From the IMG/VR virus record IMGVR_UViG_3300047446_000091, positions 1 to 41,410 of that record: 41,410 nt of DNA; one strand, written 5' to 3'. Made by a program: the position numbers and the translations under genes. The notes under the pieces are model-generated. The model saw only the letters and a program-made list of their open reading frames with translations, was not told the origin of the DNA and ran no database searches. Positions within the stretch are counted from its first letter, which is position 1. Each line of letters starts with the position of its first letter. This document shows positions 5,484 through 24,978 of the stretch, piece after piece. The stretch is from a virus.

Positions 5484-5577
5484 TGATGATATTCCGAAAC
5501 GGACCTCGTTTTCTGTTTCCCTTAAGACTCTCTATAGGGAATGTGAAAACACATCTAGAATCGTCATTCCATCATCA
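5484..5577. other. Structured element A (paired with element B)
   Basis: A 94-bp element bounded by inverted repeats TGATGAT/ATCATCA. It shares with 24888-24978 a core that runs GTTTT, GTTTC, CTTAAG, then CTAT.GGGA, and a right part ATCTA.AA.CGTCAT. The outer arms and an inner hairpin (ATGTG/CACAT here, GATAC/GTATC in B) differ between copies but remain paired. This argues for a selected DNA or RNA structure. Function unknown. Confidence 0.6.
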
Positions 5578-5647
5578 ATCGCAGGTCAGACGCACCGCGC
5601 CGAACGCCACGGAGCGGCCCTCGTCATGCCGAATGTAACGGAAACGC

Positions 5648-5685
5648 AAAAACCCCCGGCCGGATTGCTCCGATCGGGGGTCTTT
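5648..5685 (-). terminator. Intrinsic terminator after integrase
   Basis: On the minus strand a GACCCCCGATCGG / CCGGCCGGGGGT stem is followed by TTTTTG, 58 bp past the integrase stop. It is a canonical rho-independent terminator. Confidence 0.85.
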
Positions 5686-5742
5686 ATGTGGTACAGGTCA
5701 CATCAGATGCTCAGTAGCGTTGTGTAATCACTTGGTTACTGG

Positions 5743-7425
5743 CTAGACGCGCTCGCCCGTGGTCACCCAGTCATAGTCAACGCGCTGCTCAATGGGGGTC
5801 CGATCGCCTCGACCTTTGGCGGGTGCCACGTACACAGCCTTGAGCGCGCTCCGCAGCAACATGCGCCGATCGCTCAGAGAGGTGTGCTCGCCGCTGAACG
5901 CCTCCCGTAGTAGCTCGCCGTCCATGAGGGCCCCCAGGTTGCCACCCTCGCTCAGCGCCTCAATCTTGGCGTTCATCGTGTCGATGGTGGCGCGCTGCCG
6001 TTCGCTGAGTTCCTCGTATCGCTCCTCGGTCATCTTCCCGTGGATGTAGTAGTCATCCTCCAACTTCTGTACGCGTTCCTGAGCTGCTTTCAGCGCCGCA
6101 CGGGCATGTTCCCGCTCGACCTGCGTTTCAGGGTCCGCGTAGGCCAGCCAGCGGCGTGCGATGTCGTGTAGGACGGTGTCGTCGGGCTCTAGCGCCGTGA
6201 CGTGTCGCACCCACGCTTCGCAGACGGCGAACTCAAGCCGGGGGCCGAGGGTAGTGGTCCCCTTGCAAAACGCCGGTCCTTTGCTGGCCCATGTGGCGCA
6301 CCGGTAGTAGCCGCGATGGTGGCGCATCCACCCGTTGCAGAGACCGCATTTCACAATGCTGGTGAGCAGGTATTCAGCCGCGCGCCGTCCGCGCATTGCT
6401 CCGCTGTTCGCGTCACCCTCGGAGGTGCGTTCGGCGAAACCTGCTTTGATCGCGTACCACTCCCCGGGGGTGACTACTCCCTCTCCGCACTGGACTGCGT
6501 TGCCTTTTGCGTCGAGCAGAGGCTCATGGGTGGACTTCCATTTACCTGTGGGATTCCCGTGCTCGTCCTGAACTCTTTCGGTCAACGGCACCATTCCGCC
6601 CCATAGAGGGCTCTGCACAATTCGGCTTACCGAGGATGCGGTGAATAGCGCGCCGGTGCGCAGTCGGTGTCCCTCGGCGTTCATCTGCTTTGCGGCGGAA
6701 TTCCCCGAGAGTTTCTCGCCCGGCTTGCCTTCCTCGGTGACCCATTTGCCAAGCAGCAAATCGGCGAGTCGGCGGGCACTCTGGTATTCGGTGGGATGGT
6801 GGGCGACCAGTCCGCTTGCCTTTCCGTCGGCGAGCCTTGGGCTTGCCAGCCCGAACGGCGGCAGTCCAGTTCCGCGCCGTCCCTCGTGCCGGTGTGCGGC
6901 TAGGCCGGTGTTCACGCGGAGGGCGATGTCTTTGGCTTCCTCGCGTGCCCGTTCGCTGAGGATGGCAAAGACAATTCGGGCGCCTTGTTGCCGACTGTCG
7001 AGCCCCTCGGTGACGCTCACGAGGCCAGCGCGCCGACGGTCGAACTCGTCGAGCATGCGGCCCACCGCACCCATGCCTCGCCGGTCGAACCGGTCGGTCT
7101 TCCAGAACGCGAGGGTCTTGGACTTGCCGTCGAAAACGGCTTGCGTGGCTTTCTCGAACTCCGGGCGCCGGACGTAGAGCTTGGATGCCGACAGTTGCTC
7201 GAACCAGACGTGGCGGATCTGGTAGCCGTCCGGCCAGCGGTGGCGGCAGATGTCGCGGAGGTGCTGCCGCATGGTGGCGAGATCCTCGCGCTTCTTGCTG
7301 CGGCGCAAGTACGCTTCTACCAGCCGCTCGGGGGGTGCCGTCGCTGGCGTGAGCAGGCCTAGCGCGGCTAGCTCCTCATCCTCGAACCCAAGTGCCTTGA
7401 GCCCCTGGTAGTCGGCGCGTTGCAT
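5743..7425 (-). CDS. int: Large serine integrase
   Basis: A 560-residue large serine recombinase. The catalytic-domain start AYLRRSKK places the nucleophile at Ser43, followed by FWKTDRFDRRG and the helix-E-type RIVFAILSERAREE. The recombinase DNA-binding domain spans about 170-310. A zinc ribbon (CGLC, then YYRC and FC) lies near 395-425, and a coiled coil near 470-540. ATG at 7425 has GGGGAGGAA immediately upstream. A candidate attP lies 34 bp upstream, and a phiC31 gp3-like RDF is encoded at 22620. The N-terminus is about 30 residues longer than in most relatives. This enzyme would integrate the phage at a chromosomal attB. Confidence 0.95.
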   Translation of the reverse strand: MQRADYQGLKALGFEDEELAALGLLTPATAPPERLVEAYLRRSKKREDLATMRQHLRDICRHRWPDGYQIRHVWFEQLSASKLYVRRPEFEKATQAVFDGKSKTLAFWKTDRFDRRGMGAVGRMLDEFDRRRAGLVSVTEGLDSRQQGARIVFAILSERAREEAKDIALRVNTGLAAHRHEGRRGTGLPPFGLASPRLADGKASGLVAHHPTEYQSARRLADLLLGKWVTEEGKPGEKLSGNSAAKQMNAEGHRLRTGALFTASSVSRIVQSPLWGGMVPLTERVQDEHGNPTGKWKSTHEPLLDAKGNAVQCGEGVVTPGEWYAIKAGFAERTSEGDANSGAMRGRRAAEYLLTSIVKCGLCNGWMRHHRGYYRCATWASKGPAFCKGTTTLGPRLEFAVCEAWVRHVTALEPDDTVLHDIARRWLAYADPETQVEREHARAALKAAQERVQKLEDDYYIHGKMTEERYEELSERQRATIDTMNAKIEALSEGGNLGALMDGELLREAFSGEHTSLSDRRMLLRSALKAVYVAPAKGRGDRTPIEQRVDYDWVTTGERV

Positions 7426-7458
7426 GGTTCCTCCCCTGGTCAGACGTGCTGTAGAGAG

Positions 7459-7510
7459 ACTACCCCTTTTCATCACGGATTTCGAAGAAACCATGATGCA
7501 AGGGGGTAGT
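7459..7510. other. Candidate attP (attachment site)
   Basis: A 52-bp imperfect inverted repeat just upstream of int. ACTACCCC at 7459-7466 pairs with GGGGTAGT at 7503-7510, and CATCA at 7471-7475 pairs with TGATG at 7494-7498, all about one centre at 7484/7485. The central dinucleotide on the plus strand is GA, which is non-palindromic as directional serine integrases need. Size, symmetry and position match attP sites of this class. Confidence 0.7.
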
Positions 7511-7526
7511 TGTCGGCGGGCAGCAG

Positions 7527-7561
7527 AAAGCCCCGACGGGCGGGGATCCCGATCGGGGCTT
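7527..7561 (-). terminator. Intrinsic terminator upstream of int (second of tandem pair)
   Basis: Minus-strand AAGCCCCGA...TCGGGGCTTT hairpin. With the next hairpin it insulates int and attP from transcription of the accessory genes. Confidence 0.7.
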
Positions 7562-7574
7562 ACGGTGTGCTGCA

Positions 7575-7606
7575 AGCCCCGGGGTGTCATGGGGCACCCC
7601 GGGGCT
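7575..7606 (-). terminator. Strong hairpin terminator after the 68-residue gene
   Basis: Stem AGCCCCGGGGTG / CACCCCGGGGCT with an 8-nt loop, 10 bp past the stop codon at 7616. The following T-tract is poor (CTT), but the stem is perfect over 12 bp. Confidence 0.65.
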
Positions 7607-7615
7607 CCCTTCTGT

Positions 7616-7822
7616 TCAACCTGCTGTTATGGGCTTGCCGATCCTCGCGAGCCGGTAGGCGCCATAGAGCCCTCGGCCCAGACTGCAACCCTCGTTAGGC
7701 CCGGCGGCGCGTACGCAGATGTGACACGGCGCGGCACCCTCTTGCAAGGGCTTGACGTGCTCGATGTACGCCGCCCATGCCGCTGTGTATCCCTCGTTCG
7801 GCATGGTGGGTCCGGCGTTCAC
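7616..7822 (-). CDS. Hypothetical protein with CHIC motif
   Basis: A 68-residue protein of unknown function with an APCHICVRAAGP segment near the middle and one further Cys (NEGC), a possible small metal site. The GTG start at 7822 overlaps the TGA of the preceding gene (GTGA), so the two are translationally coupled. Last gene of the accessory run before integrase; followed by two terminator hairpins. Confidence 0.65.
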   Translation of the reverse strand: MNAGPTMPNEGYTAAWAAYIEHVKPLQEGAAPCHICVRAAGPNEGCSLGRGLYGAYRLARIGKPITAG

Positions 7823-8001
7823 GCTGCCTCCCCGCCCGGGATGATCTGCCCGGGGAGCGCCGACCATTCTTGGCCACCACCATCGGGGCGGAGCATGGCT
7901 TGCCCGCACCACTCCCCCATGAACCGGCCGGTCTTTCCGGTCGCTGTGTCGAGCACTAGGGCGCCGACATCGGGGAGTTTGATGACCAGGAATTCGCTCA
8001 T
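7819..8001 (-). CDS. Hypothetical small protein
   Basis: A 60-residue protein beginning MSEFLVIKLPDVGALVLDTATG and rich in glycine; it looks like a small beta-structured protein. No known family is recognised. ATG at 8001, with GGGGCAGG about 10 nt upstream. Coupled to the next gene by a 4-nt overlap. Confidence 0.6.
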   Translation of the reverse strand: MSEFLVIKLPDVGALVLDTATGKTGRFMGEWCGQAMLRPDGGGQEWSALPGQIIPGGEAA

Positions 8002-8149
8002 GCGGCACCTGCCCCGAGCACGCAAAAAGCCCACCGACCTTGATCAAATGTCACTTGCTCCGGGCCGGTGAGCTCGGATGCAGCGACATTCTCAGCGCTT
8101 TCACGCTGTCCGCTGACTGGCATTTTCGGTTGTCCTAACTAGACGTCAG

Positions 8150-8168
8150 GTCCGGTCCGTTACCGGAC
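8150..8168. other. 7-bp perfect hairpin GTCCGGT/ACCGGAC
   Basis: Stem GTCCGGT/ACCGGAC with a 5-nt loop, directly downstream of the stop of the 72-residue gene. It could be a weak terminator or an operator; there is no T-tract. Confidence 0.45.
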
Positions 8169-8181
8169 TAGTTGAATCAGG

Positions 8182-8400
8182 CTACTCCCCCACCACGTAG
8201 GTTGTACGCCCTACAACCACGGTTGATGCGCCGTCCCTGATCTCTCGGGCGGCGCGTTCGAATTCCTCGGCGCGTTCCTTGTTCTCCCGCGCTACGCGCT
8301 CCCACATCGCCGCCCGGCCCTCCAATTTGGCCAGCAACTCCGCCGTGTCGCTGAAAGTCTTGATCTTGGGCGGGCTGATTACGTCCATCTCGTCATCCAT
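8182..8400 (-). CDS. Hypothetical coiled-coil protein
   Basis: A 72-residue protein with a long charged helix (about residues 18-56, heptad-like, rich in Glu, Arg and Ala) and a short beta C-terminus STVVVGRTTYVVGE. ATG at 8400; an in-frame ATG at 8388 is an alternative. Function unknown. The 130 bp to the next gene upstream hold several GC-rich hairpins but no gene. Confidence 0.6.
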   Translation of the reverse strand: MDDEMDVISPPKIKTFSDTAELLAKLEGRAAMWERVARENKERAEEFERAAREIRDGASTVVVGRTTYVVGE

Positions 8401-8530
8401 ACCAGGGAGCCTACCGGGCGCCCAACGGGCCCTGTGCGCCCCTCTGTGGCCCCGTAGCGGCCTCTACGGGTTCCACTCCCCAACACCCCTCGCGGAGCCC
8501 CTGAGGGCCCCTGTAGCCCCTCGGCGGGGC

Positions 8531-9136
8531 CTATGCCACCTCGCCCGACGGGAGTCCGTACAGATCAGGCAACGCGTCCTCGTGCGGCACATCCTCCTTG
8601 TCTCGGACGTGCGGTATCTGCTCCGGAATCGCGTCCAGCGGGCGGACGGTGCTCCGCAGGTCGATACCCAAGCGCGGGAGCCCCTGGGTCACCTCGCCTA
8701 GGACGGCGCGCGCATACCGACTGAGGCCGCTCAGCGTGTAGCCCGGGAACGTGGGCGCTGAGGGGTTGGCACTCGATGACTTACTCCAGACGATCCAGGG
8801 TTCGGGCTCGGCCTCGTACTGGCCGTGCAAGGGGTTCCACGCCCATGCGTACTGGCCGAGCAAGCGACCCGTGAACAGACCACGGGCCATGATGCGAAAC
8901 CGGGGGGACGAGGACGCGCGTACGAGCATCGTTGCGACCCACGGGCCGTACGACAGCAGGACACGTTCTAGCTCGTGGCGGGTGTGGACCACCTCGACGG
9001 CATGCGGCGCACACCCATCGAGAGGCATCCAGTGCCAATTGTTGGTGACTGTCATCGGCGACGAAACTTGCACGTGGAGGCCGATGGTTGGCACGTATGC
9101 CGGAACGCGAATTCCGGCTTTCAGCAGAGTGCGCAT
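8531..9136 (-). CDS. Hypothetical protein, accessory region
   Basis: A 201-residue protein of unknown function. No catalytic motif, signal peptide or membrane helix is obvious. It is rich in Trp and aromatic residues in the middle (YAWAWNPLHGQY, EPEPWIVW), and the acidic C-terminus looks flexible. ATG at 9136 is chosen for the GGTAGGGG upstream; an in-frame GTG at 9220 would add an oddly Cys-rich leader. It is driven by the promoter at 9341-9368, about 200 bp upstream, so the mRNA has a long leader. Confidence 0.6.
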   Translation of the reverse strand: MRTLLKAGIRVPAYVPTIGLHVQVSSPMTVTNNWHWMPLDGCAPHAVEVVHTRHELERVLLSYGPWVATMLVRASSSPRFRIMARGLFTGRLLGQYAWAWNPLHGQYEAEPEPWIVWSKSSSANPSAPTFPGYTLSGLSRYARAVLGEVTQGLPRLGIDLRSTVRPLDAIPEQIPHVRDKEDVPHEDALPDLYGLPSGEVA

Positions 9137-9368
9137 GGGGACGCCCCTACCTTTCAGATCAAACCCACGGTGGGTAAAGCAACAGTAAGCGGAGTACATG
9201 AGTCCGTTACCGACGTTCACACAGCCTTCACACAGGTGCGAGCGGGCGTATGCGCAGGTCAGAGCATTAGCAACGCCGTTTATAAAGTTTTCAGCAAAGT
9301 TCCTGTCGGCTGATCGACATTCGGCATTGCCGAACCGTGTTTGTTACTGAGCGGTAGCTTAAATGCAA
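9137..9368 (-). promoter_or_regulatory. Promoter and long leader of the 201-residue gene
   Basis: TTGCAT (9363-9368) and TAACAA (9341-9346), spaced 16 bp, lie 8 bp beyond palindrome copy 3. About 200 nt of leader with no convincing gene follows; it includes a TTCGGCAATGCCGAA inverted repeat near 9320. Confidence 0.5.
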
Positions 9369-9376
9369 AAAAGAGC

Positions 9377-9396
9377 ACCTCCCAAATTTGGGAGGT
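9377..9396 (-). terminator. Palindrome copy 3, with terminator form
   Basis: A perfect copy whose arms extend to GAGC...GCTC (9373-9400), giving a 28-bp perfect palindrome. On the minus strand it is followed directly by TTTTTT, so in RNA it is a textbook intrinsic terminator for the gene ending at 9411, while as DNA it abuts the next promoter. Confidence 0.85.
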
Positions 9397-9410
9397 GCTC
9401 CTCGCAGCCC

Positions 9411-9908
9411 CTAGGCCACCCGTACGAACCTGAACTTCCCGGTGCCTACCGCCTGCACTCCGGTCGGCGTCCATCCGGCCCTCGTCCACTTGCACAGGTT
9501 CGAGACTCGCCGAACCATGTTCCGCTTACCCGGTACCTGCTCCTCACCGGCCCACAGCCAGTAGAACGAGGCGACCGGCTCGCCGTCCTCAAGGACGGTC
9601 ACAGGCTCGTTGTAGGACGTCTGCTGAACAGCCTTCCAAGCATCCTCCTTCGTGGCGTACTCCGTTACGACAAGCTTTCCGTTGGTCGAGCGACCGATGG
9701 CCCGGCGACCTCCCGCAGCGTCGATAGGGTCGTACGCGATCGTGTAGGTGGGCATCTTCGTGGCCTCTCCGTGGAATGCAACCCAGCACCGCGCGGCGCT
9801 GGTTGCCATCTCCGCAGTGTAGTAAGCGGGAGTGACGAACAGCACGGCGTCACCGGCGCTCACCCGCGCGGAGTGCTTGCCGTTTGTCTCGGTTGCCGTG
9901 ATGTTCAT
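9411..9908 (-). CDS. Hypothetical protein, accessory region
   Basis: A 165-residue protein starting at ATG 9908 with AAGGGGAG upstream. The N-terminal part (to about residue 52) and the remainder (from MPTYTIAYDPIDAAGG) look like two modules, and an internal ATG at 9753 preceded by GGAGAGG could give a shorter form. The middle resembles a small alpha/beta fold; the C-terminus is basic and aromatic. No family recognised. It has its own palindrome-linked promoter and ends at the terminator-form palindrome. Confidence 0.6.
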   Translation of the reverse strand: MNITATETNGKHSARVSAGDAVLFVTPAYYTAEMATSAARCWVAFHGEATKMPTYTIAYDPIDAAGGRRAIGRSTNGKLVVTEYATKEDAWKAVQQTSYNEPVTVLEDGEPVASFYWLWAGEEQVPGKRNMVRRVSNLCKWTRAGWTPTGVQAVGTGKFRFVRVA

Positions 9909-9946
9909 TGCCGCTCCCCTTGCTGCGTTCCTTGCTGACAAGGAAG

Positions 9947-9975
9947 ACGTTAGGGCATGGCGCAGCCACACGCAA
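9947..9975 (-). promoter_or_regulatory. Palindrome-linked promoter for gene 9908
   Basis: TTGCGT (9970-9975), 17-bp spacer, TAACGT (9947-9952), starting 3 bp after palindrome copy 4. The ATG lies 38 bp beyond the -10 box. Confidence 0.65.
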
Positions 9976-9978
9976 GCC

Positions 9979-9998
9979 ACCTCCCAAATTTGGTAGGT
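9979..9998. repeat. Palindrome copy 4 (variant half-site)
   Basis: ACCTCCCAAATTTGGTAGGT: one half-site has GGT in place of GGG. It lies just after the 10018 stop and abuts the promoter of gene 9908. Confidence 0.95.
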
Positions 9999-10017
9999 GA
10001 TTCCCGTGTGGCTTAGC

Positions 10018-10182
10018 TCACTCCCCCTCGATCACCTCAAGGTGGTGCTCATCCGCCTCGACCGGCACCCCTCGATCGGTCTCAACAAGCCAGCGCCCGG
10101 GGCCGATCTTGCGTACGGGCTTGCCGTTGTAGTCGTACTCCCAGTTGTGCACGCGGACACCGGGTCTGAGTTCCTCGTTCAA
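10018..10182 (-). CDS. Small hypothetical protein
   Basis: A 54-residue protein. TTG at 10182 is favoured because AAGGAGAGG lies just upstream; a longer frame to 10239 lacks such a site. The sequence (RPGVRVHNWEYDYNGKP...PGRWLVETDRG) reads as a small SH3/KOW-like beta barrel, as in many small phage proteins, ending in an acidic tail. Function unknown. Confidence 0.6.
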   Translation of the reverse strand: MNEELRPGVRVHNWEYDYNGKPVRKIGPGRWLVETDRGVPVEADEHHLEVIEGE

Positions 10183-10257
10183 AAGCCTCTCCTTGCCGTT
10201 CTGAGCGCCAAACGGGCCCGGGGTGGACCGTGTACCCACCCCGAACCTGCAAGACCC

Positions 10258-10518
10258 TCAGAGAGCCGCAGTCTTCCACTTCTCTATCTGCGCGTCGAAC
10301 AGCGCGTCAGCCTCAGCGCGCGGGAGGTCACGGAACTCAGTCGCCGTGACGGTTACCTTGGCCGAGCGGAACTCGGAGAGGGTGATACGGACACGGACGG
10401 CGCCCGACTTGAGCGATCGGCGGGTGATCTGCGCGCTGAGGTCCCGGACGGTAAAGGCACCCCGGTTGGCAGAGACAACGGCGGTCGCGGTGACGTAGGT
10501 GACGGTCGCGGCGTTCAT
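10258..10518 (-). CDS. Small hypothetical protein
   Basis: An 86-residue protein with alternating beta-type sequence (TVTYVTATAVVS, AVRVRITLSEFRSAKVTVTATEF) and a short C-terminal helix. ATG at 10518 has GAGGGAGT upstream. No family recognised. It has its own palindrome-linked promoter, and a terminator separates it from the gene upstream. Confidence 0.6.
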   Translation of the reverse strand: MNAATVTYVTATAVVSANRGAFTVRDLSAQITRRSLKSGAVRVRITLSEFRSAKVTVTATEFRDLPRAEADALFDAQIEKWKTAAL

Positions 10519-10561
10519 GGTGACTCCCTCGGTTAGGGCCGGTGTTCCGGCCGATGTGCAG

Positions 10562-10591
10562 ATCTAAGCACGGCTCCACTCCCCCGCGCAA
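10562..10591 (-). promoter_or_regulatory. Palindrome-linked promoter for gene 10518
   Basis: TTGCGC (10586-10591), 18-bp spacer ending CCGTGC, TTAGAT (10562-10567). It begins 3 bp after palindrome copy 5, and the spacer end is shared with the promoter at 10875. Confidence 0.65.
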
Positions 10592-10594
10592 CCC

Positions 10595-10614
10595 ACCTCC
10601 CAAATTTGGGAGGT
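10595..10614. repeat. Palindrome copy 5
   Basis: Perfect copy lying between the terminator at 10627-10654 and the promoter at 10562-10591. Confidence 0.95.
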
Positions 10615-10626
10615 GCTCCGGACAGC

Positions 10627-10654
10627 AAAAAACCCCCGGGGTGACCGGGGGTTC
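10627..10654 (-). terminator. Intrinsic terminator after gene 10659
   Basis: Minus-strand AACCCCCGG/CCGGGGGTT stem followed by TTTTTGC, a few bases after the stop codon. Confidence 0.85.
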
Positions 10655-10658
10655 TCTG

Positions 10659-10844
10659 TCAGTCCTCGTAGTGCATTTTCACTCGCGCATTGGGCCGGAG
10701 TTCCACGCCCCCGTACCCGAGAGGGATCCAAACCGTTTCCTCGTCCGCGCTCGGCCTCCCCGCGAGGTAGGCGAGTCCGCCGAACTCCAGCCACTCCCCC
10801 GCCTTGATGTTCTTCGCTGCCTTGGTCTTGGGTCGTGCGTTCAC
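10659..10844 (-). CDS. Small hypothetical protein
   Basis: A 61-residue protein starting at GTG 10844 with GGAG upstream. A basic N-terminus (NARPKTKAAKNIKAG) is followed by beta-rich sequence ending HYED. Extending it further upstream would run through the promoter and palindrome, so the short form is preferred. Function unknown. It is a self-contained unit: palindrome, promoter, gene, terminator. Confidence 0.6.
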   Translation of the reverse strand: MNARPKTKAAKNIKAGEWLEFGGLAYLAGRPSADEETVWIPLGYGGVELRPNARVKMHYED

Positions 10845-10874
10845 TGTCTTGCTCCGTTCGTTCGGTGTGCCACC

Positions 10875-10904
10875 AGTAAAGCACGGTGCCGCGCCCCCAT
10901 ACAA
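10875..10904 (-). promoter_or_regulatory. Palindrome-linked promoter for gene 10844
   Basis: TTGTAT (10899-10904), 18-bp spacer, TTTACT (10875-10880), 3 bp after palindrome copy 6. It resembles the 10562 promoter over most of its length, suggesting that the unit was duplicated. Confidence 0.65.
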
Positions 10905-10907
10905 CCC

Positions 10908-10927
10908 ACCTCCCAAATTTGGGAGGT
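10908..10927. repeat. Palindrome copy 6
   Basis: Perfect copy between the terminator of the 81-residue gene and the promoter of gene 10844. Confidence 0.95.
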
Positions 10928-10936
10928 GACACGCAA

Positions 10937-10963
10937 GAAACCCCCCGCCGAAGCGAGGGGTTC
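10937..10963 (-). terminator. Intrinsic terminator after gene 10969
   Basis: Minus-strand AACCCCTCGC TTCG GCGGGGGGTTTC hairpin with a stable tetraloop, 5 bp past the stop. Confidence 0.85.
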
Positions 10964-10968
10964 CCTGG

Positions 10969-11214
10969 TTACTTGCTGGCGTCCTTTCCGATCAGTTGAC
11001 TCAGCATCTCGATGATCTGAGCTTGACCGGTCTTAAGTTCCTTTACGTCCGTCCTCAGGTCAGTGAGCTGAGCATGTACGGCCGTTCGGAACGAATCGAG
11101 TGAGGTGAGAACCTGCGCTGTGTTCATCGCGTTTACCGCCTCTATGTGGCCAACCTTCCGGTCGACCGCATCCACGCGCTGAGTCAGTGCCGCAAGTTCG
11201 TCGTGCTCGCTCAT
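10969..11214 (-). CDS. Small coiled-coil protein
   Basis: An 81-residue protein that is almost entirely heptad-patterned helix (DELAALTQRVDAVDRKVGHIEAV...LTDLRTDVKELKTGQAQIIEMLSQLI). ATG at 11214 with GAGAGG upstream. No membrane segment. Function unknown; it could oligomerise or be a small tail or regulatory partner. Confidence 0.65.
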   Translation of the reverse strand: MSEHDELAALTQRVDAVDRKVGHIEAVNAMNTAQVLTSLDSFRTAVHAQLTDLRTDVKELKTGQAQIIEMLSQLIGKDASK

Positions 11215-11261
11215 TTGGCGCCTCTCTGGAGTTGTTGTTACGAGAGAACCATACCACAAGA

Positions 11262-11519
11262 TCAAGACGAGGTGAGCTTGCGCGCCTCGATCTTGCGAGT
11301 CATGCACGCCTTGAAACTCGCCTCCCGCTCCTCTAGCGGGATTTCCTGGACGCTACCGGCGATGAGGGAGAACAGTTGGACGACATCCGTGTGACGGAAC
11401 TTGAGGGTCTTGCCGATGCCGCCCATGGTGGTGATGTCGATCTCAAACGTGTACGTGTCGCCATCCTTGACGGCCCGCACGTCGTCGGCCCACTTGACGT
11501 TTTCCTGATGACGGATCAT
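11262..11519 (-). CDS. Small hypothetical protein
   Basis: An 85-residue protein starting MIRHQENVKWADDVRAVKDGDTYTF. ATG at 11519 has GGGAGGGGCGGG upstream. Beta-type N-terminal half, helical basic C-terminus. No recognised family. Its promoter region holds palindrome copy 7, but the -35/-10 boxes there are weak. Confidence 0.6.
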   Translation of the reverse strand: MIRHQENVKWADDVRAVKDGDTYTFEIDITTMGGIGKTLKFRHTDVVQLFSLIAGSVQEIPLEEREASFKACMTRKIEARKLTSS

Positions 11520-11565
11520 TCCCGCCCCTCCCTTGTCCAAAAACGATGTGGCCACCATACACACC

Positions 11566-11585
11566 ACCTCCCAAATTTGGGAGGT
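11566..11585. repeat. Palindrome copy 7
   Basis: Perfect copy 47 bp upstream of the ATG at 11519. A GTGTAT follows at the spacing of the -35 boxes in the sister promoters, but the -10 is poor. Confidence 0.95.
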
Positions 11586-11663
11586 CCTCAGTGTGGTGCG
11601 CGTCACATTACAGAGCGTCGCCGCCGGCATTTCGGAGAGTGATAATCGCAGGTCAGAGGGCAT

Positions 11664-11694
11664 AAAAACACCCCCGGCGGGTACCGGGGGTGTT
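11664..11694 (-). terminator. Intrinsic terminator after dCMP deaminase
   Basis: Minus-strand AACACCCCCGGTACC / GGGGGTGTTTTTA hairpin just beyond the stop at 11697. Confidence 0.85.
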
Positions 11695-11696
11695 CC

Positions 11697-12167
11697 TCAT
11701 GGACGCTCGTACTCTGTGATGGGTGTCACAACCCGCTGAATGCCGCACGCCCGTATCAGCGTCCAGCACCCCGGGCACGGCTCGCGGGTCACGTACAGGG
11801 TCGCGCCGACTAGCTCAGCGTGCGGAGTGTGCCGAATGGCATTGCGTTCGGCGTGATCGGCCACGCAGTTCGCATAGTCGCTGTCCGGCTCGACCGCATC
11901 CGGGCATGGCCACCCCTTACCGCATAGGCAGTTATGCAGCCCCACCAGGTTAGGCAACGGCATGCGCGTGTGCTTTCCGCGCGGGCACGCACCCGCTGAG
12001 GCACAACCGGGCACGCCCGGCGGGGCACCGTTGTAACCAGTCCCCCGCACCTCGTTGGCACCGTTCACGAGGACGGCACCAACTTGAGCCCGGGTGCAGT
12101 CGGCGCGAGTCGCTGCCCATGCCGCACCGGCGAGAAAGTACGCGTCCCAGGTTGGGCGGTCGGTCAA
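11697..12167 (-). CDS. dCMP deaminase-like protein
   Basis: A 156-residue cytidine/deoxycytidylate deaminase-family enzyme. The zinc-binding and proton-transfer motif HAE is at 105-107 and PCPGC at 130-134, with the usual GAVLVNG strand near residue 30. An insertion with extra Cys residues (GCASAGACPRG, NCLCGKGWPC) between strands is typical of phage dCMP deaminases. It would convert dCMP to dUMP, the substrate of ThyX encoded at 12696, so the two supply dTMP for phage DNA synthesis. Confidence 0.92.
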   Translation of the reverse strand: MTDRPTWDAYFLAGAAWAATRADCTRAQVGAVLVNGANEVRGTGYNGAPPGVPGCASAGACPRGKHTRMPLPNLVGLHNCLCGKGWPCPDAVEPDSDYANCVADHAERNAIRHTPHAELVGATLYVTREPCPGCWTLIRACGIQRVVTPITEYERP

Positions 12168-12175
12168 CGGCTCCC

Positions 12176-12692: not shown

Positions 12693-12695
12693 AGG

Positions 12696-13394: not shown

Positions 13395-13417
13395 AGTCTC
13401 TCCCCTACCAAGGAAGC

Positions 13418-13437
13418 ACCTCCCAAATTTGGGAGGT
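13418..13437. repeat. Palindrome copy 8 (extended arms)
   Basis: Perfect copy with arms extended by GGAAGC/GCTTCC. It lies between the stop of the transglycosylase-like gene and thyX and forms a long hairpin in mRNA. Confidence 0.95.
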
Positions 13438-13449
13438 GCTTCCCGTTGA

Positions 13450-15085: not shown

Positions 15086-15160
15086 CGCCCCGGGCGGGAT
15101 TCGAACCCGCAGCCTCCCCCTTGAATGGCGGGGGTGTTCTGCCGCTTGAACTACCGGGGC
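15086..15160 (-). tRNA. tRNA with 9-nt anticodon loop (identity uncertain)
   Basis: A clear cloverleaf: acceptor GCCCCGG/CCGGGGC, D stem GTTC/GAAC, anticodon stem CCCCC/GGGGG, variable loop AGGCT, T stem GCGGG/CCCGC with loop TTCGAAT, discriminator G, no CCA. The anticodon loop is GCCATTCAA, 9 nt in place of 7. Aligning the last seven bases to tRNA-Glu would give anticodon TTC; a centred reading gives ATT. It may be a frameshift-competent or decayed tRNA. Confidence 0.8.
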
Positions 15161-17173: not shown

Positions 17174-17190
17174 GTGACCCCCTCGGCTGC

Positions 17191-19038: not shown

Positions 19039-19071
19039 GTGTCTCCCCTTGCTGCGCAAGCCAAAGGGAGC

Positions 19072-19091
19072 ACCTACCAAATTTGGGAGGT
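19072..19091. repeat. Palindrome copy 10 (variant half-site)
   Basis: ACCTACCAAATTTGGGAGGT, the mirror of the copy-4 variant, with arms extended to GGGAGC/GCTCCC. Lies between primase and polymerase genes. Confidence 0.95.
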
Positions 19092-19111
19092 GCTCCCCGA
19101 CGGGCCGATGA

Positions 19112-21553
19112 CTACTTACCGAGGATCCCGGGACCACTTACCGGGGTCGACGCGTTGGCGATGCGCACCCCGACGAGGGCAATCCCCTTCATGGTCTTCT
19201 TGCGGAACGCCCCTCGCTCTTCCATGGCCGCGTAGAACGTGCGGCGGGTCCACACCTCGCGCTGCTGTAGCCCCTCGGCCTCACACCAGTCCCGGTAAGC
19301 GTTGTACGCCTCGTCACCGTTGAGGGTCGCCTCAGGAACCCGCTCAAGGGTGCCGGGGAAGAACCCGGCGAGTGCATCGCTGGTTTCCTTGTATTCCTGC
19401 ACGGCGCTCTTGATTACGTCCGGATCCTGTAGCCCGTCGGCAAACCACTCGACCGCACCTCGTACGGCCCATGCGGCGATGCCCTCAGACTCAGCCAGTA
19501 GCTTTGCGTCAAGGGCGTGGTCCCGCTCATGGGGCGCAAACCAGCGCTTGAACGGGATCATCTTGACGCGTCGCCACAGACCCTCGTCTTGACCCCGGAA
19601 ACGAGGCTTGTGGTTGGTCGCGAGCATGAGGAGAAAGGACGGCTTGAACTCAAAGAACTCTTGCCGAAGGAACCGAGCGCTGATCATGTCCTTACCGGTG
19701 ACCCGCTTGAGGATTGCCTCGCTCATCGGCTTGCCGCTTTCACCCTCGGAAGCCATGACGAGGCGAGCACCTCGCAGCGCCGCAATGTCGTTGGGGATAC
19801 CGCCCGACGACTTTTCCTCGAACGTGGCAAAGCCCGTGGTCTTACTGATCGTGCGGAACACAGCGGTGAGGGTGTCAGTGAGGACACTCTTGCCGTTGGC
19901 ACCCTTCCCCCACAGGACACAGAAAGCTTGTTCCGTGACGTGGCCGGTGATGCCGTAGCCGACGAGTCGGCGCATGTAGTCGGTGAGTTCGGGATTCTCG
20001 GGGAAGATCTCAGACAGGAACGATTCCCAACGGGCGCACGTCGCATCCGCGCGGTAGTCGATGTCTAGGGCGTACGTGAGCATGTCTTCCTTGGCATGTG
20101 GCGCGAGCGTCCCCGTGCGCAGGTCGACCGTTCCGTTGCGGAAACTCAGCAGGTCGGGGCGAGCGTCGAACGCCGACGCGTCGACATGCACCGTGGGCAC
20201 CGAGCGCAGCTCAGTCATGAGGGCATCAATGCGAGTCGTCATGGTGAAACCGCGCGCCTTTTGAGTCTCCCCCGCGAGCACGAGGGCAGCGCCCATGCGA
20301 TGTATTTCCTGCCTGATCTTGACCTCAGACCGCTCCCATGTCCGGCCGTTCCACACGTAGTAGCCCAGCCCGGGGGCGTACTTGATACGGCCGTCCGACC
20401 ATGCGACGAGGGCGTGAGCGTTCATCGCGTCAGACTCGCCGTAGCGGTTAATGAGACCAGCGAGAATGCGAGCCGCTTCCGTACCTTGGTCCCGGCTCAC
20501 TACGTCGGCGCCGGTCAAGTCCGTGAGTTCAGCGGATACCGCCTCTGCCGCAGCTTCGGCCGAATCCTGCACGGGTCCCGCCGACTTGACGGCACGGTGC
20601 AGCGCGAGAGGGAAGGAATGAGGGTCTCGCTCACGCCACTTAGTGAGGTCATCCTTGGGGGTCGGAATCGGCAACGCGTAGACCTTGAGGCCATGCTCGG
20701 CGAGACCCTTGGCAAGCATGCGGTTGAATCGCTGCCCGGCCTCGTCGTTGTCGCCGCACGCGATTACCTGCGAGCCCTTGAGCCCCTCGGCAAGCTCGGC
20801 GATGAGTTCCGGGCTACTGGCGAGACTGGCACCTCGCACGGCAACCGCGTTGTAGCCAACAGAAACCGCTGTGAGCCCGTCTCCGGGCCCCTCAGACACG
20901 AGGGTGACTCCATACCCACCCTCACCCTTGAAAACGCCGTACGGGGCCCACCGATGCCCGTCAGGGTTGCGGAGCGACACCCACCGTCCCGGGCAGTCGC
21001 CGGAAAGGTCGCGCCCCTGTAGTCCGCGTATGACTCCGTCGAAACCGACGAGAGGCACCGTGAGGCGCGGGTACGAGGTGAACGCACGAGACCGGTACGG
21101 GAACCGATGCTTACCGGCGGAGTACTCCCCAGGGTCCACCCCGAGAAACAGTTCGCATGCCGTGTCGGCGTCCAGCCCGAACCGTTCGTCGACGTACGCC
21201 CGTGCCTTTGCCGACCATGTGTTGTCGTAGTCGAGCAGTGCATGCGACGTTTCCTCAACGTACATGCGCAGTGCGGCAGTTGGACCGGGGCCGACGAGGA
21301 CCGGCTTTTCCTTGGCTACCGTGAGCCCCTCCCCCGTCACGTCGAACATGTCCGGCCACGTCAGGTTTGCAGCCTTGACCACGTCATCGGACTTACAGCC
21401 CGAACGGCAGGTGAGGCGAACCTTGTTGTCATCGCCGCGCCATATGCGGAGCGACGGCCGAGAATCAGCGTGCGCCGGACACTGCGCGAGATACCCGCCG
21501 TCCGCTTCCTCCGATACCTGAGTGAAGCGTGCGAGCACATCAGAGAACTGCAT
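19112..21553 (-). CDS. Primase/helicase (CHC2 zinc finger, TOPRIM, SF3 helicase)
   Basis: An 813-residue replication protein. The N-terminal zinc site is CPAH (25-28) with CRSGC (49-53). The TOPRIM domain has SEGPGDG (220-226) and DNDEAG (268-273). A D5-type linker domain follows, then an SF3/P4-type helicase with Walker A GKGANGKS (549-556) and a downstream MLATNHKPRF sensor segment. It would unwind DNA and lay primers for the polymerase encoded next. ATG at 21553 has GGAAAGG upstream, and the early 17-bp element lies 33 nt before it. Confidence 0.95.
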   Translation of the reverse strand: MQFSDVLARFTQVSEEADGGYLAQCPAHADSRPSLRIWRGDDNKVRLTCRSGCKSDDVVKAANLTWPDMFDVTGEGLTVAKEKPVLVGPGPTAALRMYVEETSHALLDYDNTWSAKARAYVDERFGLDADTACELFLGVDPGEYSAGKHRFPYRSRAFTSYPRLTVPLVGFDGVIRGLQGRDLSGDCPGRWVSLRNPDGHRWAPYGVFKGEGGYGVTLVSEGPGDGLTAVSVGYNAVAVRGASLASSPELIAELAEGLKGSQVIACGDNDEAGQRFNRMLAKGLAEHGLKVYALPIPTPKDDLTKWRERDPHSFPLALHRAVKSAGPVQDSAEAAAEAVSAELTDLTGADVVSRDQGTEAARILAGLINRYGESDAMNAHALVAWSDGRIKYAPGLGYYVWNGRTWERSEVKIRQEIHRMGAALVLAGETQKARGFTMTTRIDALMTELRSVPTVHVDASAFDARPDLLSFRNGTVDLRTGTLAPHAKEDMLTYALDIDYRADATCARWESFLSEIFPENPELTDYMRRLVGYGITGHVTEQAFCVLWGKGANGKSVLTDTLTAVFRTISKTTGFATFEEKSSGGIPNDIAALRGARLVMASEGESGKPMSEAILKRVTGKDMISARFLRQEFFEFKPSFLLMLATNHKPRFRGQDEGLWRRVKMIPFKRWFAPHERDHALDAKLLAESEGIAAWAVRGAVEWFADGLQDPDVIKSAVQEYKETSDALAGFFPGTLERVPEATLNGDEAYNAYRDWCEAEGLQQREVWTRRTFYAAMEERGAFRKKTMKGIALVGVRIANASTPVSGPGILGK

Positions 21554-21585
21554 GTGGGTTGACCTTTCCTCTCTTCACTCAGGTA

Positions 21586-21602
21586 TGAGAGGGCGTCTCT
21601 AG
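21586..21602 (-). promoter_or_regulatory. Early 17-bp element (upstream of primase/helicase)
   Basis: Exact CTAGAGACGCCCTCTCA followed by TACCTGAGTGAA; its TAG ends the HNH gene and the primase start is 33 nt downstream. Confidence 0.75.
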
Positions 21603-22021
21603 AACGGCGGGACGTACCCGAACGTCTCAGACCACTCAGCTAGTGTCTTGGCACCCTTGCTGAGGTTGCACGGAGCGCATGCCGGAACGATGTTCGCCTC
21701 AACGTCCGCACCACCCTTGGCAATTGGCTGCACGTGGTCAAGGTGAGTGGCGAACGCGTCGCAGTAGGCACACATGTGCTTCCAGCGGGCGAGGATGGCC
21801 GTACGGGAGTAAGGGACATGCTCGACACCCGCAGCCTCAGCACGGCGCTTGTGGGTTAGCTCATGCCTCTTGTCCGGGGGCAACGAGGCGTAGTAGCTGC
21901 GGCGATGCTGCGCCTGTAGCTTCCGGCGACATGTGGCACATGTGCTTGAGGGTCGCTTGGCCTTACCGGCAAGGAACTGATCGGCGGGCTTTCCCCGCCC
22001 GCATAGCCGACACACCTTCAC
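21599..22021 (-). CDS. HNH endonuclease with N-terminal zinc finger
   Basis: A 140-residue protein. Residues 1-40 carry CRLCGRGKPADQF and CATCRRK, the same type of zinc module seen in the endonuclease VII-like protein. The C-terminal HNH core is CAYCDAFATHLDHVQPIAKGG with CAPCNLSKG. GTG at 22021 has GGGGAGGG upstream and overlaps the stop of the 24-residue gene. It lies ahead of the replication genes and may be a mobile intruder or a replication-linked nicking enzyme. Confidence 0.9.
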   Translation of the reverse strand: MKVCRLCGRGKPADQFLAGKAKRPSSTCATCRRKLQAQHRRSYYASLPPDKRHELTHKRRAEAAGVEHVPYSRTAILARWKHMCAYCDAFATHLDHVQPIAKGGADVEANIVPACAPCNLSKGAKTLAEWSETFGYVPPF

Positions 22022-22092
22022 CGCTTGAGCCCTCCCCACGTCACGTAATACAGTGTCAGCCCACAGAACATGCCAGCGAAGAATGCTGTCAC
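22018..22092 (-). CDS. Tiny membrane protein
   Basis: A 24-residue hydrophobic peptide (VTAFFAGMFCGLTLYYVTWGGLKR) with one transmembrane-type helix and a basic C-terminus. The GTG overlaps the stop of the gene before it, and its stop overlaps the next start (GTGA both times), with AGGTGAGG upstream. Small but well embedded in the operon. Confidence 0.5.
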   Translation of the reverse strand: MTAFFAGMFCGLTLYYVTWGGLKR

Positions 22093-22265
22093 TGAAGCCA
22101 CCTCACCTCTGCGCCACGGCTCACCGCATGCGCTATCGCGTCCACGTATCGGGCCCAATCCGGCCTCGTACGTGCCTCGTTCAGCAACCGCACCGTGTCC
22201 CCCGCACCGAGGGCGCGAACGTCCCCCAATGCCGGTCCGTAGTAGCGGCTGATATGCAGGGTCAC
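22089..22265 (-). CDS. Small hypothetical protein
   Basis: A 58-residue protein starting at GTG 22265 with CGGAGG 5 nt upstream. Sequence TLHISRYYGPALGDVRALGAGDTVRLLNEARTRPDWARYVDAI suggests a short alpha/beta fold. Function unknown. It follows a terminator-like hairpin at 22284-22319. Confidence 0.55.
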   Translation of the reverse strand: MTLHISRYYGPALGDVRALGAGDTVRLLNEARTRPDWARYVDAIAHAVSRGAEVRWLQ

Positions 22266-22283
22266 CAAACCTCCGAAACACAA

Positions 22284-22319
22284 ATGCCCGGCAAGCACCG
22301 AGAGGCACTTGCCGGGCAA
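22284..22319 (-). terminator. Strong hairpin after gene 22339
   Basis: Stem TGCCCGGCAAG / CTTGCCGGGCA extended by an inner TGC pair, followed by TTTG on the minus strand, 20 bp past the stop. Confidence 0.7.
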
Positions 22320-22338
22320 GATTGATGGGCGCTAGCCC

Positions 22339-22617
22339 CTAGTCGACGAACTCAGCGCCCGGCGAGACGAGGCGCACATGTTCAGCGGCGATCCACACAC
22401 CGCGCTGAGTACGCCTCTTGACGAAACCCGACTCGTTGCCGGTTGGCTTCACATACAGCATCGGGCGCAGCCTGCCAGCCTCAACACGGGCCGTGACCCG
22501 CTCGACGAGGGCGTCAGACATGCGCACACGGTTGCCGTTACGGGTCGCGTAGCTGACGAGGTCACCCCGGTACAGCTCATCCCCCGCATAGTCAGTGACA
22601 GTTCCTCGCTTGCCCAT
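22339..22617 (-). CDS. Small hypothetical protein, beta-barrel-like
   Basis: A 92-residue basic protein. MGKRGTVTDYAGDELYRGDLVSYATR and WIAAEHVRLVSP read as an SH3/KOW-like barrel that could bind nucleic acid. It follows the RDF gene closely (2 bp apart). Function unknown. Confidence 0.6.
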   Translation of the reverse strand: MGKRGTVTDYAGDELYRGDLVSYATRNGNRVRMSDALVERVTARVEAGRLRPMLYVKPTGNESGFVKRRTQRGVWIAAEHVRLVSPGAEFVD

Positions 22618-22619
22618 GC

Positions 22620-23318
22620 TCAGCGCTCCTCGGCAATCGCGTCATTCCAGGACTTGAGAACCTTGATTACCGGCTTGCGGTACTCAACGTTCTTACCGGC
22701 CGAGGTGGTGAACTGGACTAGTTCGAGACTCAGCGTGCAGAGCGCCTCTCCCCCGATGCGCTCAAGCTCATCCTCTATCTCGTGCAGCACAGAGACGAGG
22801 TCCCACGAGGTCGAGGTGAACTTGCCGATGCCGAGCTCGTAATCCTCGGCGAGACGGAAAGAGACAGTCGTATTGGGCTGCGGACCACGACCCGCGCGAG
22901 CAGCCGCCTTACGGTCGGCGAGGAGCGGCGGACAACCGCACGGCGTACCACGGTCCTCGTCCGGCGAGAGGAACTCAACACCGTCACACTCATGGATCGG
23001 GCCGGAACGTCCCCAAAGGATCATCCGCGCGTTGATGGCCTTAGTGCCGTCGATGACCACCTGCACGGCGTTCGTGTCGGTGAGCACCTCTAGGAAATCC
23101 TCCTTAGAGGTTTCCCACTCGTCGACCGTGCCGCCCATAAGGAGCGAGATTGCCTTGGCTACCTCAGGGTCACCGGAAGTGACGCGCCAATCCGCAAGCG
23201 ACTGAGGCCGGTTGTTGGCCATGCGACCCGAACGGAACTGAAACGCAACGTCGTTGGCGAACTGTCGACGAGGCTTAGGCTTAGCGTCGGGGTCGGTTTC
23301 GAAAATGCGGACGCCCAT
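22620..23318 (-). CDS. Recombination directionality factor, phiC31 gp3-like
   Basis: A 232-residue protein that I recognise as like phiC31/phiBT1 gp3: start MGVRIFETDPDAKPKPRRQF, then FANDVAFQFRSG, WRVTSGDPEVA, the CDGVEFLSPDEDRGTPCGCPP segment (near 130-150) with conserved cysteines, and YRKPVIKVLKSWNDAIAEE at the end. In phiC31 gp3 binds the serine integrase and switches it to excision. Encoding it with a large serine integrase fits. ATG at 23318 with GAGGT upstream; early element and palindrome copy 11 lie in its leader. Confidence 0.82.
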   Translation of the reverse strand: MGVRIFETDPDAKPKPRRQFANDVAFQFRSGRMANNRPQSLADWRVTSGDPEVAKAISLLMGGTVDEWETSKEDFLEVLTDTNAVQVVIDGTKAINARMILWGRSGPIHECDGVEFLSPDEDRGTPCGCPPLLADRKAAARAGRGPQPNTTVSFRLAEDYELGIGKFTSTSWDLVSVLHEIEDELERIGGEALCTLSLELVQFTTSAGKNVEYRKPVIKVLKSWNDAIAEER

Positions 23319-23372
23319 ACTGTGTGACCTCACTCTGAATGTCTGTGATTGGTGGGAGCGAGCAAGGGGGTG

Positions 23373-23392
23373 ACCTCCCAAATTTGGGAGGT
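23373..23392. repeat. Palindrome copy 11, within a long hairpin
   Basis: Perfect copy flanked by a second inverted pair, GCGAGCAAGGG / CCCTTGCTCGC, so the leader of the RDF gene could fold into a stem of over 20 bp with an internal bulge. Confidence 0.95.
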
Positions 23393-23426
23393 GCTTACCG
23401 GCCCTTGCTCGCCCCGTACTTACATC

Positions 23427-23443
23427 TGAGAGGGGGTCTCTAG
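23427..23443 (-). promoter_or_regulatory. Early 17-bp element, one mismatch (upstream of RDF)
   Basis: CTAGAGACCCCCTCTCA followed by GATGTAAGTACG. Its TAG is the stop of the RNA ligase gene. The RDF start is 109 nt downstream, with palindrome copy 11 between. Confidence 0.7.
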
Positions 23444-23991
23444 CGCGCTTCCCACTTGCCCGCATCGTTCGCGTCAAGGGTCACCTTGAACACGTTGCGA
23501 GTCTGCGTATGAAAGATGCACACACCCTCAGCGTTCGTGAATCCCGGGGCGGCGACGGAACCGAGATCGGCCATTTCGTCGAGCCATTCCGTGATCTTCC
23601 GCTCACTGAACGGGCCCACATACAGCACCGGCACGGGACCCACGGGGACGTCGCCCACGGTCGCGTTAAGCGCTGCATGGGTCGCAGTATTGAAGAGCGA
23701 GAAACGGCGCTCAGAGAGGCCGTAGTTTCGCTGGATACCCCTCCCCCACCATTCGCCGAAGTGGACCCCGGGGCCGAGCAGCATCCCAAGCTCCGCCGCA
23801 TGCTCGTACACCCAGCGGGCAAACCCGTAGTTGTCAGCCTCAGGAGTGATGAGCCGGTTTCGGGACTGCGTCGCAACGGCATAGCCCGCCTCGTCCACGT
23901 GAATGGCAGCGTTGGTGCCGTCGATCTTTTCCGTGATGACGATCTCTCGGAAAAGTCGCTTGGTCTTGGGCCACGGAACGAACTCGGTCAC
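23440..23991 (-). CDS. RNA ligase family protein
   Basis: A 183-residue nucleotidyltransferase of the RNA ligase (Rnl2/DRB0094-like) family. Motif I EKIDGTN (Lys22 as the AMP-accepting residue), SRNR as motif Ia, FGEWWGRGIQRNYG as motif III, EGVCIFH as motif IV and VFKVT as motif V are all present. It lacks a large C-terminal domain. It could reseal cleaved tRNAs or nicked RNA; two tRNAs are encoded here. GTG at 23991 directly follows the nuclease stop. Confidence 0.85.
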   Translation of the reverse strand: MTEFVPWPKTKRLFREIVITEKIDGTNAAIHVDEAGYAVATQSRNRLITPEADNYGFARWVYEHAAELGMLLGPGVHFGEWWGRGIQRNYGLSERRFSLFNTATHAALNATVGDVPVGPVPVLYVGPFSERKITEWLDEMADLGSVAAPGFTNAEGVCIFHTQTRNVFKVTLDANDAGKWEAR

Positions 23992-24831
23992 CTACTTCCC
24001 CCGCCGCTGAGTGCCAGTCACGAACGAGGTCCCGCCCGCAGCAAGCGGCTTACCGATGACGGTCTTACTCGTCTCCCGGTCCCAATCGAATGTTGCCCGC
24101 AGGTGGAGGAACTGCGCGAACACCTCGTCATTGACGAGGACGGGCTTGAATGCCCACTGATCGGCAGTGATGTGCAGCACCGCAGCGCCGTCAAACTCCG
24201 GCATCGGCTCACTCGACCCGTCCGGCGCAACGATGCGGTCGGCGTAGGCGTATGCCGCCATCTGTAGGGCCACGTCCGGGTAGGTGGCCTTAGAGGTCTT
24301 CCAGTCGGCCATGAGGAGCGCGGGAGTGCCCGAACGGTCCGGGGTCGGTTTGTTGTCCTCGTCGAGCCACACGCGGAGGATGGCGTCAAAGGATCCGGCG
24401 TACTTGTGGGTGTCGGACCATGCCACATCCTCAGCGCGGACTAGCTCAGGGTTCACGACCTCAAGGAACTCCGCGAAATGCCGGACGTACGGCGCGAGGT
24501 CGGGGTGAACGCGCCCGATGAGTTCGCCACGGATCATCCGCTCAAACAGATCGTGAGCGGCCGAGCCAACATCAGCGCGCAGCTTGGTATATCGGCGGGC
24601 TGCATTCTTGAGCCAGTCGACGGCACCCTGTCGGTCGCGCTCCGCCATCTGCCCGACGAACGGCAGCGAGTCAACGGCGAGTTCGGCGACCATCTTGGCA
24701 TTCCAGAAAGCCAGGAACGGCTTAGGGAGCATGCCGATTACCGAGGTGACCCCGGGGACCTTCTCGGCCGTTTCGTGGTCGACGTAAAAGCGGGACCCTC
24801 CCCGCATGATGGTTCGGACTGTACCGGCCAT
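23992..24831 (-). CDS. PD-(D/E)XK nuclease (RecB/Cas4-like)
   Basis: A 279-residue nuclease. Motif residues are YAGSFDAIL with the catalytic Asp, LLMADWKTSK (the DWKT strand) and the following QMAAYAYA motif with Gln and Tyr, as in RecB-like exonucleases. Its place between structured element B and the RNA ligase/RDF genes suggests a recombination or DNA-processing role. ATG at 24831 has AAAGGGG upstream; an early element lies 39 nt before the start. Confidence 0.88.
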   Translation of the reverse strand: MAGTVRTIMRGGSRFYVDHETAEKVPGVTSVIGMLPKPFLAFWNAKMVAELAVDSLPFVGQMAERDRQGAVDWLKNAARRYTKLRADVGSAAHDLFERMIRGELIGRVHPDLAPYVRHFAEFLEVVNPELVRAEDVAWSDTHKYAGSFDAILRVWLDEDNKPTPDRSGTPALLMADWKTSKATYPDVALQMAAYAYADRIVAPDGSSEPMPEFDGAAVLHITADQWAFKPVLVNDEVFAQFLHLRATFDWDRETSKTVIGKPLAAGGTSFVTGTQRRGK

Positions 24832-24869
24832 GGAAACCCCTTTGGGTCGTGGTTGCTTACACGACCACT

Positions 24870-24886
24870 TGAGAGGGGTTCTCTAG
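24870..24886 (-). promoter_or_regulatory. Early 17-bp element, two mismatches (upstream of nuclease)
   Basis: CTAGAGAACCCCTCTCA, start codon 39 nt downstream, immediately beside element B. No coding gene ends here. Confidence 0.7.
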
Positions 24887-24887
24887 C

Positions 24888-24978
24888 TGACGGTATGGCG
24901 AATCGAGGGGCTGTTTTGGTTTCTCTTAAGGACTTCTATTGGGATACCTAGATCAGTATCTAAAACGTCATACCGTCA
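24888..24978. other. Structured element B (paired with element A)
   Basis: A 91-bp element bounded by TGACGGTATG/CATACCGTCA, with an inner GATAC/GTATC hairpin and a core similar to 5484-5577 (GTTTT, GTTTC, CTTAAG, CTATTGGGA). Arms differ from those of element A but remain self-complementary. Lies between the terminator of gene 25125 and the nuclease gene. Confidence 0.6.

Follow-up and report, generated by a model that had tools for sequence, protein, structure and literature searches.

Two related dyad elements in a phiC31-type phage genome

We describe here two copies, E1 and E2, of one ~95 bp dyad element in a 41,410-base virus record (IMGVR_UViG_3300047446_000091), the whole of which is referred to as the window. 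The ends of the window are identical over 127 bp (1–127 and 41284–41410), and it is therefore taken to be a complete circular-mapping genome with a true length of ~41,283 bp. The identified genes lie on the minus strand and include those for the portal, terminase, serine integrase, ThyX, a sigma factor, DNA polymerase I (Pol I), a primase-helicase, an exonuclease, a gp3 resembling recombination directionality factors, and a phiC31-type repressor, with the same gene order as in phiC31. Among named phages the window is closest to the phiC31-type phages of Streptomyces (primase identity 64–69%), and it belongs with the phiC31-like phages by its synteny, the replication genes it has in common with phiC31, and a repressor of family PF25746; the structural genes have diverged, the capsid having 34% identity to that of phiC31.

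E1 (5483–5577) is located between the serine integrase gene (5743–7590, minus strand), which is on its 5′ side in the reading direction, and a tRNA-Leu gene, the same place as in phiC31, TG1, Rowa, and others. E2 (24887–24979) is upstream of the gene for a RecB-type exonuclease (23992–24831, minus strand), the homologue of phiC31 gp1, which in the reading direction is on the 3′ side of E2. The primase-helicase gp9a (19112–21553, minus strand), with Toprim, D5_N, and DUF5906/SF3 helicase domains and a Pox_D5 C-terminus, is the proposed iteron-binding initiator.

Each element has arms of 6 bp iterons, two or three per arm, that point inwards around an AT-rich centre. Read inwards, the order is a 6 bp iteron, a 2 bp spacer, a second 6 bp iteron, ~20 bp, a core dyad of TCTWATRG half-sites around 3–4 bp, ~20 bp, and the inverted iterons, and the AT content between the arms is 57%, as against 37% for the genome. 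The iteron period is 8 in most elements and 7 or 9 in some, and a third iteron is present in phiC31 and TG1. In E1, direct reading gives a left outer iteron ATGATG (5483–5488, plus strand), which also fits the 8 bp register of the homologues, a degenerate second left iteron ATTCCG (5491–5496, plus strand), and two right iterons on the minus strand (5562–5575), CGTCAT (5562–5567, reads ATGACG) and CATCAT (5570–5575, reads ATGATG). Its core dyad, CCTTAAGA-ctc-TCTATAGGGAA with half-site ~TCTWATRG, is at 5520–5541 as defined by core scans and homologue alignment. E2 has left iterons CTGACG (24887–24892) and ATGGCG (24895–24900) with an 8 bp period (24887–24900, plus strand), a core dyad CTCTTAAG-gact-TCTATTGGGA that fits the core pattern (24923–24944), and two right CGTCAT iterons (24966–24971 and 24974–24979; 24966–24979, minus strand), both of which read ATGACG. 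A scan of the window for the core pattern CTTAAGN{1,5}TCTATNGGGA gave exactly two matches, each on the plus strand, and 100 shuffles gave none.

An earlier note on this DNA had picked out related elements at 5484–5577 and 24888–24978 from shared strings, with outer arms that differ between the two yet remain complementary, and direct reading bears out both observations. It had also placed a copy of an early element beside each; there is such a copy at E2 (TTGAGAGGGGTTCTCTAGC, ~24868–24886), but the candidate at E1 (~5448–5475) is weaker. This repeat, TGAGAGGGnGTCTCTAGC, is found in the early region of the window at 15158, 15550, 16512, 21571, 23412, and 24868, the copy that adjoins E2 being one of these, and is likely an early promoter or regulatory element. 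In most copies across the phage panel, one arm is also flanked immediately on its outer side by a CTGACCTGGG box on the coding strand.

Conservation of the element pair

Two copies of the element are present in all 21 isolate phages examined, in one metagenomic phage, and in the window, a set of 23 genomes. To look for second copies, the 400 bp that precede the exonuclease gene were aligned with the remainder of each phage genome, and this recovered them in phiC31, TG1, BT1, Rowa, Heather, RemusLoopin, Sebastisaurus, Lilbooboo, Vash, Shawty, Shaeky, Sycamore, Samora, Euratis, AbbeyMikolon, and Nesbitt, as well as in the Arthrobacter phages Lego and MissSwiss; that of Shady was found by a separate search. 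Dubu and SASD1 also have the pair, with arms that are built differently. The positions are constant in the Streptomyces phages, one copy preceding exonuclease gene 1 and the other following the integrase gene towards the cos end. These homologous pairs confirm that the elements are related and conserved and that their arm changes are compensated.

A blind scan of 21 genomes, looking in each phage for its own iteron in two tandem pairs that face inwards, gave exactly two sites in 16 genomes, one in four (the window, Heather, Shaeky, and Shady), and none in MissSwiss, the missed sites being those recovered by alignment. Where two were given, the distance between them is 0.35–0.55 of the genome, and the scan found no other iteron clusters. 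Pattern scans gave further homologues: IMGVR 3300046529_000252 has two, two 3300018910 contigs have one each, window-like contigs contain near-copies, and each of three Streptomyces chromosomes has a single copy. Searching the phage collection with the elements by blastn gave nothing useful because the arms change too fast, and the matches listed from a loose core scan are mostly chance occurrences in AT-rich contigs; a Butyrivibrio match (L126) and two low-GC matches (L123 and L124) have no arms and were dismissed as chance. Only one of 70 Streptomyces genomes contains the core, at the already known copy, and the core is therefore not a host feature.

The iterons vary between phages (GTGACG, ATGACG, CTGACG, GTGTAG, GTGCAG, and GGGACG), and both copies within a phage carry the same one, with a mean identity of 0.90 as against 0.71 between lineages for sites typed by hand. 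This includes E1, which has the same iterons as E2 at ~13.5 kb from gp9a. All iteron copies in a phage thus change together, presumably because one protein reads them.

Covariation of iterons with the gp9a C-terminus

Among the phiC31 early proteins only gp1, gp3, gp9a, gp11, and the deoxynucleoside monophosphate kinase have a relative in each of the 23 genomes; every genome also has a match to the large terminase, but in half of them at just 26–39% identity. Approximately 147 further loci were gathered by primase similarity and dereplicated to 82, and iterons were called before the exonuclease gene without reference to the primase, although the manual entry of those for a dozen known phages is a weakness. 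Mutual information was then calculated between iteron bases and 1,684 variable columns of the five shared proteins, with residues numbered as in the window gp9a.

For iteron base 4, gp9a K786 ranks first among all columns, I791 second, and K785 sixth, and for base 1 gp9a M788 ranks first. K786 occurs with a base-4 A at 55 loci and never with T or C, and all 18 of the T or C iterons (14 T and four C) have R786. At residue 788, N accompanies a base-1 G in 31 of 31 cases, M or A accompanies A in 12 of 15, and E accompanies C in three. Residues 786 and 788 are part of RKKTMKG (residues 784–790; 19184–19204, minus strand), the putative wing of a C-terminal winged helix. The exonuclease gene is nearer to E2 than gp9a is, and its columns lead neither list, which argues against mere linkage. 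On a tree of the helicase part with the C-terminus left out, a quick tree for which the careful search was unfinished, the TA iteron class requires at least four changes and ATGACG at least seven, and the association is therefore repeated rather than a single inheritance. Near neighbours can differ in both iteron and wing, as with L244 (ATGTAG, wing RVRVS) and L268 (CTGACG, wing RSKTE), or Lego (ATGACG, KRKTM) and MissSwiss (GTGACG, KRKTN), whose primases are 85% identical. From these sequence comparisons we conclude that it is very probably gp9a that reads the iterons.

The Pox_D5 profile (PF03288) matches the gp9a C-terminal fragment with 23.4 bits, above the cut-off of 21.4, and whole gp9a with 19.1 bits, just under it. 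A structure model of residues 691–813 has a mean predicted local distance difference test score (pLDDT) of 67, rising to ~78–87 over the winged-helix part, and residues 786 and 788 fall within the predicted wing, which is modelled as the RKKT strand and the following turn. RFX proteins contact DNA through the wing. The best PDB fold matches are the DNA-binding domains of RFX5 and RFX1, the latter being a winged helix on its X-box (1dp7), followed by African swine fever virus PrimPol; RFX1 differs in being a eukaryotic transcription factor, and the match has an E of ~0.01 to a gp9a model of modest confidence. A weak resemblance of D5 to RFX1 was noted previously for vaccinia D5 (PMC9611036).

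In five loci (L300, L303, L304, L307, and L310) the gp9a wing has a GTGG/STGG insertion and the iterons are GTGA-type. These are exceptions to the K786 rule, and the variant wing may represent a different reading mode.

Candidate replication origins and alternative explanations

We regard it as a strong probability that E1 and E2 are two replication origins, or an origin and an origin-like partner site, of a phiC31-type phage. The computed features behind this are the conserved pair, the iteron anatomy, the AT-rich centre, the iteron identity within each phage, and the covariation of wing and iterons, from which we infer physical binding, melting, replication, and cooperation of the two sites. 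In the proposed mechanism the C-terminal winged helix of gp9a would bind the two or three inward-facing 6 bp iterons of each arm, placing initiator oligomers on both sides of the AT-rich centre (the dyad CTTAAG..TCTATAG), the proposed place of duplex opening and helicase loading. Priming would be provided by the same gp9a polypeptide, with the phage Pol I following.

Several observations weigh against this interpretation. E1 contains the poor iteron ATTCCG, and Dubu and SASD1 have no clear iteron register. The GC skew keeps its sign at both E1 and E2, a measure confounded by the one-way gene direction. E2 is ~3.3 kb upstream of gp9a and E1 is ~13.5 kb away, in contrast to the origins of Staphylococcus aureus pathogenicity islands (SaPIs), which are directly downstream of rep, and the three Streptomyces chromosomes have one copy with no nearby gp9a homologue, so that the element is also found separately from this gene. 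In six gp9a homologues R786 accompanies A-type iterons, the wing being altered in five of the six, and the Fisher values and permutation z-scores for the covariation ignore shared ancestry.

The earlier note had interpreted the paired arms as a conserved RNA or DNA structure, slightly favouring plus-strand RNA antisense to the genes. The arms are indeed complementary despite their changes, and single-strand fold z-scores of the elements range from −2.0 to −4.1, with −3.4 and −4.1 on the plus strand. Base pairing does not require the tandem repeats, however, and the arms are tandem inverted iterons whose bases covary with the DNA-binding wing of gp9a. Complementarity across 46 elements is 92.6% at iteron positions as against 67.4% at the 2 bp spacers, a comparison of supporting weight only since it is biased towards the iterons, which the site finder scored. 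The inner hairpin proposed in the note (ATGTG/CACAT versus GATAC/GTATC) does not hold up, as hairpins of at least 5 bp between the arms occur in 22 of 76 elements with 21.5 expected from shuffles, and the proposed helices show only 56–63% pairing on nine homologues, weak support compared with shuffles and slides. Neither conserved helices nor covariation beyond relatedness, as expected of a structured non-coding RNA, was found, the two strands of E1 fold equally well, and Rfam has no match for the elements. A structured RNA or cruciform maintained by base pairing is thus hardly credible.

Alternatively, gp9a could bind both sites for control (for example copy-number handcuffing, early-region boundaries, or silencing), the true origin being at another site. 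Handcuffing is used by iteron replicons, the paired copies suit looping, and in the Streptomyces phages E1 and E2 flank the early region from exonuclease to integrase. We nonetheless consider this unlikely, as each single copy has the full origin anatomy and, since the blind scan found no other iteron cluster, an origin elsewhere would have to rely on different signals. Highly improbable too is a recombination, partition, or packaging site for another protein such as the integrase, the gp3 directionality factor, the exonuclease, or the terminase. E1 is 3′ of the integrase gene and near the cos end, and the three chromosomal copies are likewise 3′ of serine integrases, but E2 is far from both the integrase gene and the cos end, just 12 of the 23 genomes with the pair have a match to a phiC31-type integrase, the gp9a wing outranks the gp3 and exonuclease columns, and the core is in only one of the 70 Streptomyces genomes searched. 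An attP site was rejected because of the two copies and the lack of a link to integrase type. The core resembles a T7-like promoter (CTATAGGGA), which was rejected as the core is a dyad and no single-subunit RNA polymerase is among 40 scanned open reading frames.

Single copies in Streptomyces chromosomes

The three chromosomal elements (L125, L127, and L128) are single copies 3′ of serine integrases, and no gp9a or exonuclease homologues were found near them. They may represent remnants of prophages, or else satellites, and may have the element as a borrowed origin. A capsid gene adjoins the L125 element, and two distant primase relatives are encoded elsewhere in that genome. In the L125 context (L216, 8286–12992) one iteron element and a capsid gene of the HK97 type accompany a serine integrase, with no gp9a nearby, and the region is a candidate for a phage satellite whose origin is borrowed. 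L127 (325–612) and L128 (2788–3063) encode proteins of 95 and 91 residues, respectively, between the serine integrase and the iteron element. Neither has a Pfam match, and the L127 protein has the look of a zinc finger.

More tentatively, and on balance doubtfully, a code may be readable in the wing, with residue 786 specifying iteron base 4 and residue 788 base 1, such that two nearly opposite origins co-evolve with one initiator and the borrowed chromosomal origins (L125, L127, and L128) replicate on phage gp9a.

Other features of the window

A phiC31-type repressor gene (PF25746 profile match) is at 26222–27538, and a palindrome, ACCTCCCAAATTTGGGAGGT, is present in 17–18 copies across 3359–39525 (e.g. 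9375–9404), mainly in intergenic positions. It is probably the operator of this repressor, comparable to the conserved inverted repeats of phiC31. The gp3-type recombination directionality factor (22620–23477) is kept in 23 of 23 phages and a phiC31-type integrase is matched in 12 of 23, which suggests a second role for gp3, perhaps in replication.

Significance and comparison with known replication systems

The phiC31 integrase is among the most used integrases. No replication origin is marked in the phiC31 record, and we found no description of one in a literature search whose scope did not include the 1999 genome paper, so an earlier mention is possible. The elements described here provide exact candidate origin sites for phiC31, at 21.7 and 40.5 kb, and for ~100 relatives, name a putative initiator and its site-reading residues, and offer a natural series of matched initiator–iteron pairs for specificity tests, such that both the start sites and the recognition code become testable.

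Satellite phage P4 has two separate cis sites with short iterons, ori and crr, and its alpha protein is a primase, helicase, and origin binder. The likeness is in the two cis sites and one multifunctional primase-helicase-origin binder; E1 and E2 differ in being alike, each a complete dyad with an AT-rich centre, and approximately half a genome apart. The Cch2 helicase of the staphylococcal cassette chromosome SCCmec, of the D5_N type, similarly binds short direct repeats (AAGTG iterons) through its C-terminal domain, but at three iterons in a single gene-adjacent site and with a primase from another protein (PMC7581432).

The closest parallels are with the SaPIs and other phage-inducible chromosomal islands (PICIs), in which two iteron sets flank an AT-rich region (PMC6092414) and SaPI Rep, like Cch2, reads its iterons via the C-terminus (PMC7581432). 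As with Rep of the SaPI5 type, a D5_N primase-helicase (PMC6092414, PMC7581432), the iterons are element-specific and a self-loading D5-type helicase would read them through its C-terminus, the phage side of this likeness being drawn from sequence. The phage elements have two sets of short iterons, the AT-rich region between them (57% versus 37%), and a D5_N/SF3 putative initiator with a C-terminus predicted to specify the iterons. They differ in that the iteron sets are inverted, gp9a has a Toprim (DnaG-like) primase module, and neither site is immediately 3′ of the initiator gene; they are also present in full-length tailed actinobacterial phages as two far-apart copies per genome. The organization of the PICI origin has been stated to be found in no other known bacterial replicon (PMC6092414). 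If E1 and E2 are indeed origins, whole phages also use a design that had been described as restricted to PICIs.

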